64,000 nt of DNA, from the NCBI RefSeq assembly GCF_000242915.1, contig NZ_AFRZ01000001.1, forward strand, positions 124,001 through 188,000, read 5' to 3'. Positions 16,749 to 21,117 of this stretch are shown here, one piece after another (position 1 is the first letter of the stretch; the number at the start of each line of letters is the position of its first letter). The DNA is from Sulfurimonas gotlandica GD1. GTDB lineage: Bacteria; Campylobacterota; Campylobacteria; Campylobacterales; Sulfurimonadaceae. A model generated the notes under the pieces. That model made no database searches. It saw nothing but the letters and a program-made list of their open reading frames with translations, and had not been told where the DNA came from. Position numbers and translations under genes: made by a program.

Positions 16749-16776
16749 AAACTCTAAAAAATACTTTTAGAGTTTT
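16749..16776. terminator. Bidirectional intrinsic terminator with a perfect 11-bp stem
   Basis: AAACTCTAAAA (16749-16759), a 5-base loop, then TTTTAGAGTTT (16765-16775) and a further T. It sits 15 bases after the lytic transglycosylase stop and overlaps the 3' end of the small minus-strand reading frame at 16754-16870, so it can end transcripts from both sides. Confidence 0.65.
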
Positions 16777-16870
16777 CTCCCCACTCTCTTTTTTGCATAA
16801 CATGTGAGAACTCATATGCTATTATCATTAAAATCCCTGTTGCTACTAAAACCGTTGCCATTTCCAACAT
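16754..16870 (-). CDS. Small single-pass membrane protein (38 residues)
   Basis: A short reading frame filling the gap between the lytic transglycosylase and the ornithine-cyclodeaminase-family gene. The ATG at 16870 has AAGGAA six bases upstream. The peptide is mostly one hydrophobic helix (MLEMATVLVATGILMIIAYE) followed by a charged tail with an HVMQKREWGEN stretch. Good ribosome site, a classic helix and a polar tail argue that it is real; its stop lies inside the terminator stem. Function unknown. It resembles in build the small membrane subunits that accompany larger complexes, but no partner is apparent here. Confidence 0.45.
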   Translation of the reverse strand: MLEMATVLVATGILMIIAYEFSHVMQKREWGENSKSIF

Positions 16871-16942: not shown

Positions 16943-17944
16943 TCATGAAATGAATGTTTTAGATAATTTATTTACAATAAATCGTCCAATCAGTGCATCT
17001 TGAACGGCTATACCTGTTGAAATAAATAAAGTATTTTTTTCTATACTGATCTTTGAGTTCATAATATCTTTTAACTCAGTCACATTCTCTTCTGATAATA
17101 ATTCCTTCTCTTTCCATATCTTCATATCGCCAAGAAGCATGGATTGAATAGAGTCAGTAATAATATCAAATTTATCAACAAGAGACTCATCTAGTTCTGA
17201 GAGGTTATTAGCATCTGCACCTACACTACTTACAAACTCTAGATGCGAGCTATTATTTGAATTTAGTATAGAAGTCTCTGAGTCAGTTGCTAAAAAAAGT
17301 GAGCTTGATTGAGAAATTGTATCTTCAGAGTCTAATAGATTTATACTCATATCAGGGGCATAAAATGATATTAGCTTTTCAAACTTCTCACATATTGCAG
17401 AATTTGGATCATAACAGTTAACATGAGTCACTCCTAACCATCTATGCAAAATAATTGCTGTATAAAAACCTATTCTTCCAAGTCCAAGTAACCCAACAGA
17501 ATTATTTTTTTTATATATAAGCGAATATGCTAAAAGGCTTATTGCAGCAGTTCTAAAAGAAGATAGGATACAAGCGTCTATTGTCGCATAGACGTAGTTG
17601 TCATACCAATCTATAAGAAGCATTTTACCAACACTTATCTTATCTTTTATAGTCCTGTTTTCTTCATTTGTTCCAATGACTTTAACAGCTTTTATTCCAC
17701 CATTAAAGTCTGTAATACAAGGCATAACACGAAAGTCACCTTTAATATTAGGTGTGTAAATTATCTTTTTTTTAGGAACATATACCCATTTTTCTCCATC
17801 TCCCCAATCAATGTATGACTGCTTTAACTCATCCATAAACTCTGCCGAGTTTGCTATGAGTATATCATGAACTTCTACATCACTAACAGATATACAAGGC
17901 TCATCCTGTAATCTTAAAAGCTGTTTTATATCTTTTGAATGCAT
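16943..17944 (-). CDS. Ornithine cyclodeaminase / mu-crystallin family NAD(P)-dependent oxidoreductase
   Basis: 333 residues with the family fold: substrate lysine in NGGIKAVKVIG (K85), the LSSFRTAAISLLAY helix (R131-T-A-A), then the Rossmann loop GLLGLGRIG (glycines 154-159) and an acidic residue closing the second strand (CYDP). Family members are imine/ketimine reductases, amino-acid cyclodeaminases or opine-like dehydrogenases; the substrate here cannot be read off. It is the last gene of a three-gene operon; its ATG abuts the ATP-grasp stop with no gap. In this context it probably makes or consumes an amino or imino acid for the ligase upstream. That is inference. Confidence 0.8.
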   Translation of the reverse strand: MHSKDIKQLLRLQDEPCISVSDVEVHDILIANSAEFMDELKQSYIDWGDGEKWVYVPKKKIIYTPNIKGDFRVMPCITDFNGGIKAVKVIGTNEENRTIKDKISVGKMLLIDWYDNYVYATIDACILSSFRTAAISLLAYSLIYKKNNSVGLLGLGRIGFYTAIILHRWLGVTHVNCYDPNSAICEKFEKLISFYAPDMSINLLDSEDTISQSSSLFLATDSETSILNSNNSSHLEFVSSVGADANNLSELDESLVDKFDIITDSIQSMLLGDMKIWKEKELLSEENVTELKDIMNSKISIEKNTLFISTGIAVQDALIGRFIVNKLSKTFIS

Positions 17945-19705
17945 CTATTCCACATTTATTAACCTTATTAGAGCTTCTACTCTATCCTGTGATACTTTAT
18001 TTTCTAAATTTTTTGATGAAATAAGTTTGGCATCTACATTTGTTACTTTCTTAATATTACTACAAGGAAGGCCACTATATAAAAATTCATCTGTCTGAAC
18101 TACTAAAATAATTGCTTCTACTTGACGGTTCATTAAAAGTGCTCTACATCTTTTATATAAGCTTTTAAAGGGAAGTATAATTCCCTTTCTTAATCCGTTT
18201 ATTGTTACATTGTGACTGCTTACAAAACAGGATATTCCTTTTTGCATCAATTCAGACTGTTCTTGTAAAGCTATATCCATTGCCATGTTTCCACCGACTA
18301 CAACACTGATTGGTATGTTTCCATCATCATCTAAAATAAGATCAAGATAAGCTGGAATATAACTTTTAGATATTTCACTTACACCAAATGCCGGTGCAAA
18401 ATTTACTTCATTTATTATAGCTCCATTTACATGCCATGGTTTTTTGATATCTTCACTGATAATATCTATACCTGAAACTTCAAGTCCAAAGAGTTTAGCC
18501 GCTCTTATTGCTATATCAATATTATCAGGATGAATAATATCTGTAACATTTTGAGGTGTACCGCCAGATGCTGTAGATTCAATGATTCTTAGTGGGACAA
18601 GTTCCTTTTTTTTAGGTATAGATGCTAGTGAATAATTTGATTTTTTTATAACTTCAATTGCTTCTTTATCATCAGGAAATATTTTTTTACGTAACCATGG
18701 AGGATTATTTCTTATAGCCTCATTTTCTTCTTTAATAAGTTCAGAGATCTCTTTTACTCCATCACCTTCTATAGAAATCGGTAAACGTTTTACTGCATAT
18801 ATTAACTTATCTTTTGCTATAAAAATCCTATGTGCCACTCCATTAACTTCTCTTTCTATAATTATTCTTTTAGATCTTGAAAATAGTTTTGCTTTCTCAA
18901 ATGCAATTTTTAATTGTTTATCATCTGTAACTCCAACAGTAACACCTTCACCACGATCAGCATCTGCAGGCTTTATAACAATAGGCCACTCTATCTTTTT
19001 TGCTATTATTGTCGCATTTTTAACGCTGTTCGCTACTCCGTTAACAGGAGCAGGCAATCCAGCCATACGAACAATGTTTGATGTCATCATCTTATCATTA
19101 GAGAGTTTTGCACCGATACTTGAATCTAAATCACTGGTACTACGATTTATTAGTCTTGATTTTGAACCATATCCAAGCTGATATGTACCACCACCCAAAT
19201 GAAAAAATGGTATCTTTTTCTCATATGCCGCAGTTAGTATCGGTATAGTAGACTTGCCGGAACCACTAATCCCCTTTAGTTTATGTATGATCTCTTTTTC
19301 AATTCTATCATATAATTTTTCTCTATTTTCATCTGTTAGTTGAGTATTCATCATCCAGTAAATATTTTTTATTGCAAAGTTAATTATCATCTCATAACAT
19401 ATATCAGGAATATGTTCTATATAAACAAGAGCAACACTAGCACTCCATTGTAATGGTATTTTCTTATCCTGTTTTACTTTTAAAAGAGCACCTGTATCAA
19501 AATATGGTAGCAATATAGCCTGCATCAGTGAGCGTATAAGGAGTAACTCTCTCTTTATCAATGACTCCATTGGTATATTAGAGCCCTTCTGATCTTTTAT
19601 CTCTATTTTAAGTGCTGAGACCAACCAATCGTCAAGAAGATCAAAGTTAAACTTTTTAGGGCTGCTTATATTAAAAGTAAAGTTACGAGTATGTTGCATA
19701 TACAT
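17945..19705 (-). CDS. Cyanophycin-synthetase-like ATP-grasp ligase with a vestigial Mur-ligase half
   Basis: 586 residues. Residues ~175-445 are an ATP-grasp domain of the cyanophycin synthetase (CphA) type: QLGYG (176-180), VIKPADADRGEGVTVG (K245 and glycine loop), EREVNGVAHRIFIAKDKL, GDGVKEISELI and INEVNFAPAFG with the metal-binding E433/N435. Such domains activate a carboxylate as acyl-phosphate and join it to an amine. Residues ~461-586 still align by eye with the start of the CphA Mur-ligase domain (IPxxVVxGxN..., KKVTNVDAK) but the ATP loop GTNGKT is replaced by GGNMAMD and the rest (~280 residues) is absent. It follows the BKACE fusion by 1 base with an AGGA site. One amide-forming activity is expected; substrates unknown. 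Confidence 0.78.
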   Translation of the reverse strand: MYMQHTRNFTFNISSPKKFNFDLLDDWLVSALKIEIKDQKGSNIPMESLIKRELLLIRSLMQAILLPYFDTGALLKVKQDKKIPLQWSASVALVYIEHIPDICYEMIINFAIKNIYWMMNTQLTDENREKLYDRIEKEIIHKLKGISGSGKSTIPILTAAYEKKIPFFHLGGGTYQLGYGSKSRLINRSTSDLDSSIGAKLSNDKMMTSNIVRMAGLPAPVNGVANSVKNATIIAKKIEWPIVIKPADADRGEGVTVGVTDDKQLKIAFEKAKLFSRSKRIIIEREVNGVAHRIFIAKDKLIYAVKRLPISIEGDGVKEISELIKEENEAIRNNPPWLRKKIFPDDKEAIEVIKKSNYSLASIPKKKELVPLRIIESTASGGTPQNVTDIIHPDNIDIAIRAAKLFGLEVSGIDIISEDIKKPWHVNGAIINEVNFAPAFGVSEISKSYIPAYLDLILDDDGNIPISVVVGGNMAMDIALQEQSELMQKGISCFVSSHNVTINGLRKGIILPFKSLYKRCRALLMNRQVEAIILVVQTDEFLYSGLPCSNIKKVTNVDAKLISSKNLENKVSQDRVEALIRLINVE

Positions 19706-19706
19706 A

Positions 19707-21071
19707 TTAAAGTCCTAATATTTTTCGTGTTTGTGCGGGAGTAGAGATTTCACGTCCAAGCTCATTTGACACTCTTACAACACGCTCTACCAGCTCTTGG
19801 TTTGTTGTTAACTTTGTTCTAGCACTGTCATAATATATATTATCTTCAAGTCCAACACGAACATTTCCACCTGCTATTATTGCAGCCATATTCATAGGTA
19901 ACTGAAAGTCTCCAAGCCCTGCAGCAGCCCAAATAGAGTTATCAGGAAGAGATGAGTATATATGAGAAAGATCTCTTAAAGTAGCAGGTGCAGTATTTAA
20001 ATTTCCAAGTAGTATATTAAAATACTTAACCCCGCATATAATATTATGACGCTCAAGATACTTTGCCATATTTATCATACCCGTATCAAAAACTTCGAGT
20101 TCAGGCATAATATTTTTCTCTTTCATTAGTATTGCTAATCGTTGAACCATATCAATAGAGTTAACACTAGCACCAGATATAAAGTTAAGTGATCCAAGTG
20201 TCAGGCTAGCCATATCAGGTTTTGCATCTCCACTCAGATGCAAAACTTCAGATCGTGCTTCAAAACTAATCCCTCCACGACCAGAAGTAGTAGCACAACA
20301 TATAAGTTCTGGTCTCTCTCTTCTTAATGTAGAGATTATTATTTCAAAATACTTCGCATCTGATACTGGAACACCATCCTTGTCCCTTGCATGAAGATGG
20401 ACTATACTAGCTCCTGCATCATGAACTTTTATGGCATCTTCTATGATTTCATTTACTGAGATTGGTACATAAGGAGTAAGTCTCTTTGTAGGTACCATTC
20501 CGGTTAGTGCCACATTTATTATTAGTGGTTTATACGCTGATAATGGCGCTGGTTCATTTAACTCTATATATTTAAGTTTATCTCTAACTATAATAGTTTT
20601 CTTATTTATATACTGAGTTAAATCAAGTTCTAATTTTGTCCAGATATCAACATCTTTAAGTCCATGGTCAGACTTCTTTTTAGTTATTCCTGTTTGTACA
20701 TATCCATAATTTTTTTTATACCAAGTAATAGTCTCTTGCCTATCGGTATATGTTATGACTTTTTTGATTCCGGCTTTAGACATGGCTTCAAGTCTGATAT
20801 CTTGAAGTTCTTTACCAATACCGGAACCTTGGAACTCCGGATAAACTGCAAGCGATCTTGTCTCCGCTATATCATTTGAAAGTAATTGATATCCAGAGAC
20901 TCCAATAATTTTTCCCATAACTTTTGCTACAAAGAAAAACTCAAAATCAATTTCCAATGCTTCTGGAGAAGGTATTTTATGTAGATTCCATGGTGCTAAG
21001 ACATCTATTATATCAGACCTATTTTCAGGTTTAGCTTTTTCTATTACAAATTCCAAAACAAATCCTTTCAT
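19707..21071 (-). CDS. GNAT acetyltransferase fused to a beta-keto acid cleavage enzyme (BKACE, DUF849)
   Basis: 454 residues in two parts. Residues ~8-150 are a GNAT domain with the acetyl-CoA loop RSLAVYPEFQGSGIG (72-86). Residues ~182-454 are a BKACE/Kce-type TIM barrel: zinc histidines in VHLHARD (H225, H227), the TTSGRGG loop, GLGDFQ, and R405/E409/D410 in RVGLEDN, matching the catalytic block of 3-keto-5-aminohexanoate cleavage enzyme. BKACEs condense a beta-keto acid with acetyl-CoA, giving acetoacetate and a CoA ester. The usual ALTGAE glutamate is V193 here (ALTGMVP), so substrate recognition differs from lysine-fermentation Kce. Alternative start: TTG at 21056, six bases after AAAGGA, which looks better than the unsupported ATG at 21071. 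First gene of a three-gene operon. Confidence 0.85.
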   Translation of the reverse strand: MKGFVLEFVIEKAKPENRSDIIDVLAPWNLHKIPSPEALEIDFEFFFVAKVMGKIIGVSGYQLLSNDIAETRSLAVYPEFQGSGIGKELQDIRLEAMSKAGIKKVITYTDRQETITWYKKNYGYVQTGITKKKSDHGLKDVDIWTKLELDLTQYINKKTIIVRDKLKYIELNEPAPLSAYKPLIINVALTGMVPTKRLTPYVPISVNEIIEDAIKVHDAGASIVHLHARDKDGVPVSDAKYFEIIISTLRRERPELICCATTSGRGGISFEARSEVLHLSGDAKPDMASLTLGSLNFISGASVNSIDMVQRLAILMKEKNIMPELEVFDTGMINMAKYLERHNIICGVKYFNILLGNLNTAPATLRDLSHIYSSLPDNSIWAAAGLGDFQLPMNMAAIIAGGNVRVGLEDNIYYDSARTKLTTNQELVERVVRVSNELGREISTPAQTRKILGL

Positions 21072-21111
21072 AATCGTAGATTAGTTTAAAACAGACAGCT
21101 TGTATAGAAAT

Positions 21112-21117
21112 ATTATA
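21112..21117 (-). promoter_or_regulatory. -10 element (TGnTATAAT) of the GNAT-BKACE operon
   Basis: TGATATAAT on the minus strand, about 35 bases ahead of the first candidate start codon. The 192-base upstream gap is otherwise very A/T-rich and contains the osmC terminator at its far end. Confidence 0.5.

Follow-up and report, generated by a model that had tools for sequence, protein, structure and literature searches.

What might a GNAT-BKACE fusion protein, a cyanophycin-synthetase-like ATP-grasp ligase and a protein of the OCD family accomplish together, given that their genes form one tight operon? The question is raised by three minus-strand open reading frames within a stretch of 64,000 nucleotides of Sulfurimonas gotlandica GD1 (contig NZ_AFRZ01000001.1, positions 124,001 to 188,000), referred to here as the window (Table 1). 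A preliminary description of this DNA gave gaps of 1 and 0 bases between the genes and a single extended -10 box ahead of them; the ORF coordinates bear out the former, and the box matches the consensus perfectly. The further statement that the operon is bounded by terminators holds in part: The upstream hairpin exists, although it belongs to the OsmC gene, which it terminates, thereby insulating the operon from it, whereas at the 3' end the scan found no terminator, and only a weak palindrome with a T-run is present, which is better preserved in the relatives L184 and L185.

Table 1. Features of the operon and its surroundings, in window coordinates
Feature	Position	Strand	Product and domains	Basis
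Gene 1, GNAT-BKACE fusion	21071-19707	-	454 aa; GNAT about residues 8-150, BKACE residues 182-454	Pfam
Gene 2, predicted CphA2-like ATP-grasp amide ligase	19705-17945	-	586 aa; N domain, ATP-grasp about 150-460, truncated Mur-type domain without P-loop	Pfam RimK/ATP-grasp
Gene 3, OCD/mu-crystallin family, predicted NAD(P)-dependent dehydrogenase or imine reductase	17944-16943	-	333 aa	Pfam
Extended -10 element TGATATAAT	21120-21112	-		Perfect consensus match, sequence only
Hairpin with T-tail, intrinsic terminator-like, of the upstream OsmC gene	21246-21227	-		Sequence scan
Weak AT-rich palindrome and T-run at the operon 3' end, possible terminator	16946-16925	-		Sequence

The true start of gene 1 is probably the TTG at 21056, which is preceded by an AAAGGA site and is placed there because most homologues begin at this point; the protein would then comprise 449 aa. 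Between relatives, dN/dS amounts to 0.11 for gene 1, 0.18-0.24 for gene 2 and 0.16 for gene 3, and all three are therefore working genes under purifying selection. No riboswitch or known RNA was found near the operon, the single match being at chance level. An unannotated ORF of membrane type with 38 aa (MLEMATVLVATGILMIIAYEFSHVMQKREWGENSKSIF; 16757-16870, minus strand) lies in the interval that separates the operon from the lytic transglycosylase gene; this ORF is conserved in L184 (71%) and L185 (92%).

Concerning the ligase, the best NCBIfam match is cyanophycin synthetase, with 250 bits against a curated cut-off of 877, such that the CphA-type protein of the preliminary description is confirmed as CphA-like, but not as CphA. 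In a tree in which Ngg served as reference and CphA was represented by a CphA1 set, the Campylobacterota ligases group as a single clade (support 100/99), separate from both. The Mur-type P-loop GTNGKT, found in eight of nine CphA references (GTNGKS in the ninth), is absent from the window ligase and from all members of the clade. The catalytic Arg309 and the metal-binding E-x-N of the ATP-grasp domain are kept as R307, E433 and N435, invariant in alignment A5. In TeCphA1, cyanophycin and aspartate are handled by His267, Glu215 and Arg458 (PMC9427784); in the window ligase, these positions are replaced by Arg251, Met206 and Gly441, respectively. To judge from these residues, the clade has retained the ATP-grasp chemistry and has lost the cyanophycin-specific residues as well as the second ligase site.

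The AlphaFold model of the ligase (mean pLDDT 71) can be matched to CphA1 and CphA2 along the entire length, with 517 residues and a Z of 19.4 for CphA2, CphA sequences being contained in the input alignment of the model. With CphA1 and CphA2 (PDB 7ta5, 8fxi), the protein shares the N domain, the ATP-grasp domain, the truncated third domain and the residues of ATP-grasp chemistry, whereas its gene partners are GNAT-BKACE or OCD, not cyanophycinase. CphA2 polymerises beta-Asp-Arg; its chain (7ta5) comprises 585 residues, equalling the window ligase in length, and its architecture of three domains, the third truncated and free of a P-loop, is also that of the window ligase. The missing P-loop of the Mur domain is described for CphA2 as well (PMC9427784). 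The window ligase is predicted to work like CphA2, with a single ATP-grasp site, and is best called CphA2-like rather than CphA2.

Elsewhere, the ligase is fused to an ANL (AMP-binding) enzyme (G294) or to TPR-LicD domains (G056), and at least two relatives of the ligase besides CphA were found in genome contigs by the contig scan. None was found in viral contigs; among the matches listed, those in phages and plasmids are of gshAB, ngg, cphA or unnamed types with at most 32% identity. On a plasmid of Legionella adelaidensis (L179, 4028-8939), a small cluster is led by an ATP-grasp protein and continues with genes for a 4-hydroxy-2-oxovalerate aldolase-like protein, a dehydrogenase of the isocitrate/isopropylmalate family, RraA and DUF6282.

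BKACE enzymes catalyse the acetyl-CoA-dependent cleavage of beta-keto acids. As described before, gene 1 joins such a domain (PF05853, 1e-81) to an acetyltransferase (Pfam GNAT, 3e-9), whose nearest profiles are amino-acid N-acetyltransferases; the CoA and Zn motifs of both parts are intact. The Zn ligands H225, H227 and E409 together with R405, E326 and D410 are kept in all fusions, of which alignment A3 comprises 15 full-length ones, and in the comparison of BKACE residues the signature (Zn site His46/His48/Glu230, Arg226, Glu143 and Asp231 in Kce numbering) is kept in 16/16. In the TIM-barrel family, the Zn ligands and Arg226/Asp231, the domain resembles the BKACE/DUF849 enzymes Kce, 3-oxoadipate cleavage enzymes and BsfD. 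However, it is fused to GNAT and departs from the Kce type by Val/Ile at Glu14 and Phe at Tyr145, and it has Lys, Ser and Thr at positions 17, 84 and 108, respectively, whereas the references, except two rib-linked ones, possess Gly at the second of these positions and Ser, Asn or Ala at the third. By their aligned residues, the fusion BKACE domains form an active-site class of their own, distinct from the catabolic BKACEs sampled. Phe at the Tyr145 position, shared with BsfD, was also considered as a sign of BsfD-like C-acetylation and rejected as not diagnostic, since it occurs likewise in pca-linked BKACEs (Ruegeria, Paracoccus, Haematobacter) and in PDB 3no5/3fa5. A single-sequence model (pLDDT 34) gave no structural support for a coupling of GNAT and BKACE.

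In the BKACE tree, where several branches are long and the depth of the grouping is unsure, the fusions stand with two stand-alone plasmid BKACEs (44-45% identity to the fusion domains), apart from pca-linked and Kce enzymes; a grouping with known catabolic enzymes, which would have told against the preliminary description, is not seen among those sampled. Both plasmid BKACEs are neighboured by conserved genes for gamma-glutamyltransferase, GTP cyclohydrolase II, methyltransferase and riboflavin synthase, and their clusters look biosynthetic. Among the matches listed, plasmids carry stand-alone BKACEs only and no GNAT-BKACE fusion. The two plasmid clusters, on Salmonella plasmid pRSE21 (L168, 5483-10301) and on a Streptomyces camelliae plasmid (L169, 3732-11685), deserve a remark of their own: The shared GTP cyclohydrolase II is of ribA type, the Salmonella cluster adds a ribD-type deaminase, and rosB is situated near the Streptomyces cluster. 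With flavophos as precedent, they resemble clusters for a flavin-related antimetabolite in which a spare target enzyme is included. That a DUF849 enzyme can serve biosynthesis, and with other chemistry, is demonstrated by BsfD of the flavophos pathway (PMC12871164).

The third protein belongs to the OCD family, as first described (OCD_Mu_crystall, PF02423; 8e-24, 84.6 bits against a gathering score of 24); no other PF02423 member occurs in the genome. Its closest profiles are archaeal alanine dehydrogenase and SbnB, with which it shares the residues for the substrate carboxylate and the NAD-binding fold; R72, K85, R131 and D244 have their counterparts at the aligned positions of alanine dehydrogenase 1omo. 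The protein differs from them in standing in a set of its own with the ligase and in scoring only 68-79 bits against curated cut-offs of 327-409; for every characterised equivalog (AlaDH, SbnB, OCD), the score lies far below the curated cut-off. Members of the family act as dehydrogenases or imine reductases on alpha-amino or imino acids, and such an activity on an alpha-amino/imino acid is likely for gene 3 as well. Judged by these similarities, the label OCD is misleading for this protein, which is nearer to alanine dehydrogenase and SbnB.

The preliminary description took the three genes for a functional set, an idea to be given up, as laid down beforehand, if they did not co-occur outside this genome; genome neighbourhoods reveal that they do, and that the co-occurrence exceeds chance. 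Within the order, 14 of 399 genomes, from six genera, encode full-length GNAT-BKACE according to a profile search; one more such protein was found in the genus, where six of 135 genomes carry the fusion, one as a remnant. This remnant (G458; L159, 126-509), a truncated stand-alone GNAT, shares its contig with the OCD-ligase pair, at a distance of about 10 kb. The neighbourhood count comprises 16 complete fusion loci, two of them from G012, and in 15 an amide-forming ATP-grasp gene adjoins the fusion or lies one gene off; by a rough estimate, chance adjacency would be about 1% per locus, the loci being related, such that no p-value is given. The partner is a ligase of the window type in G000, G350, G373, G491 and G294, a more divergent CphA-like ATP-grasp protein in G218, and a RimK-like protein in G012 (both loci), G310, G334, G346, G304, G227, G302 and G326. 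For the fusion of G231, which sits among LPS-type genes, no ATP-grasp gene is found within the stretch covered.

Within the genus, nine of 135 genomes possess the ligase (one weak match in G501 left out) and five the OCD protein (G000, G017, G373, G439, G458), all five together with the ligase (hypergeometric p = 4e-7, a guide only, genomes being treated as independent). In four of them, OCD directly adjoins the ligase; in G373, both belong to one run of four genes, with a divergent CphA-like gene and the fusion in between. The complete set of three genes is present in G000 and G373. The contigs of G017 and G439 break off at the ligase, and an adjoining fusion gene is possible there; G458 possesses OCD, ligase and the GNAT remnant only, and G350 fusion and ligase without OCD. 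As far as the contigs reach, the loci of G000, G017, G350, G439 and G458 occupy a common chromosomal site, flanked by the OsmC gene on one side and the HIT/lytic transglycosylase genes on the other, and gene orders differ among the five. From this shared site with varied gene content it follows that the ligase is the hub there, with GNAT-BKACE and OCD as separable partners. The constant core is the ATP-grasp ligase with GNAT-BKACE and/or OCD, the latter being optional.

Two sets of genes recur beside the relatives. The first comprises P450 and a TauD-type oxygenase in G310 and, by cluster, in G334, a TauD-type oxygenase that immediately follows OCD in G439, alanine racemase (G304, G346), a GCS2 ligase (G012, with homologues in G334 and G346), and SDR and ANL enzymes (G294); such tailoring and precursor enzymes suggest free metabolites. 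The second, found with the ligase, consists of PAPS genes (CysDNCQ), TIGR03032, large autotransporter or DUF4347 proteins, LicD and cytidylyltransferase, and suggests surface modification. Separately, three islands around a CphA2-like ligase (L146, 9962-14459; L158, 3532-7958; L196, 1699-12944) contain PAPS genes (CysDN, CysC, CysQ), TIGR03032 (DUF4915), LicD-TPR, cytidylyltransferase and two-component genes, possibly for a sulfated surface structure. Furthermore, G012 harbours two copies of a RimK/GNAT-BKACE cluster (L123, 6231-11672; L124, 5904-9282), both flanked by OMP beta-barrel genes like several clusters of family f6; their ATP-grasp proteins share near-identical blocks, suggesting gene conversion.

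With moderate confidence, we lean towards the view that the three genes specify a small assembly pathway of the carrier-free (non-NRPS) kind, whose product would be a specialised metabolite or building block of the amide-linked amino-acid type. A small acetylated or amide-linked amino acid had been proposed from the outset, and an acyl- or amide-linked amino acid as product fits every enzyme type found. The BKACE domain would exchange acyl groups between acetyl-CoA and a beta-keto acid, and the fused GNAT, being of the amino-acid-N-acetyltransferase type, would pass an acyl group on to an amino acid. At its one ATP-grasp site, the CphA2-like ligase would phosphorylate a carboxylate of this product and join a second amine; one of the partners would be an unusual amino acid made or reduced by the OCD-family enzyme. 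Since some loci are without OCD (G350, G491, G294) and others without GNAT-BKACE (G458, G499, G505), the three steps need not form one linear pathway. Tentatively, and with some doubt, the fusion itself may be seen as a bifunctional module, in which an unusual acyl-CoA made by BKACE (or a BsfD-like C-acetylated intermediate) is passed by GNAT directly to an amine; by pairing this module with differing ATP-grasp ligases, Campylobacterota would produce a family of undescribed acyl-amino-acid natural products.

The product might instead be a building block for decorating surface glycoconjugates or adhesins, i.e., an N-acylated or aminoacylated sugar or protein group, and not a free metabolite. 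The second set of genes beside the ligase relatives points this way, as do the co-occurrence of TIGR03032 with the ligase in the genus (p = 1.3e-4, again with genomes treated as independent and as a guide only) and the G231 fusion among LPS-type genes. However, TIGR03032 is absent from the window genome, none of the marker genes is found at the five loci of the window's chromosomal site, and the loci with P450, racemase or several ligases better fit free metabolites, such that this explanation appears rather unlikely. Less probable still is a compatible solute in the style of N-acetylglutaminylglutamine amide, with GNAT acetylating an amino acid and the ATP-grasp enzyme coupling a second one. 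Ngg indeed pairs GNAT with a related CphA-type ATP-grasp domain acting on amino acids, and the GNAT of gene 1 is of the amino-acid type; yet the window ligase reaches 118 bits to TIGR03103 (Ngg) against a cut-off of 569, its clade is separate, its GNAT sits on another protein, fused to BKACE, the operon is without an amidotransferase and carried by few genus members, and an acetyl group needs no BKACE. The compatible solute or metal chelator of the preliminary description is also disfavoured by the patchy distribution, the varied partner ligases and the tailoring enzymes or PAPS/LicD genes beside relatives, a picture that rather suggests specialised metabolism or the decoration of surfaces.

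An operon for catabolism or detoxification that cleaves a beta-keto acid, with the OCD-family enzyme releasing or reducing the amino acid, is very improbable: BKACE and OCD families are often catabolic, the catalytic BKACE residues are kept and TctCA transporter genes adjoin the G218 locus, but the ligase spends ATP on joining, not splitting, the BKACE clade lies apart from pca and Kce enzymes, and the window operon contains neither transporter nor regulator. A storage polyamide polymerised in cyanophycin style is hardly to be expected, despite the CphA2-like size, architecture and lack of a P-loop in the Mur domain, as the cyanophycin-binding residues are replaced, no cyanophycinase was seen among the operon and its neighbours, and the clade is distinct from the sampled CphA1 set.

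ATP-grasp amidoligase operons, in which ATP-grasp and GNAT genes cluster with amino-acid enzymes, were reportedly described by Iyer and colleagues (Mol Biosyst, 2009; cited in PMC3765264); the clustering is alike, but GNAT-BKACE differs. In the literature searched, no operon with GNAT-BKACE and nothing on the fusion, TIGR03032, DUF4915 or such an operon was found, in line with the earlier remark that no pathway with this set is described. The cluster family is real, recurrent and apparently undescribed, and new as a combination of known kinds of enzymes.

Non-NRPS natural products are not, to our knowledge, among the things for which Campylobacterota are known. The phylum would gain such products through this portable family of clusters, which is dispersed over free-living members and located at one chromosomal site in five Sulfurimonas genomes. 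The ligase clade constitutes an evolutionarily defined, predicted amide-bond catalyst, and the fusion allows one to ask directly whether an acyltransferase can be supplied by BKACE chemistry, which is known mainly from catabolism.
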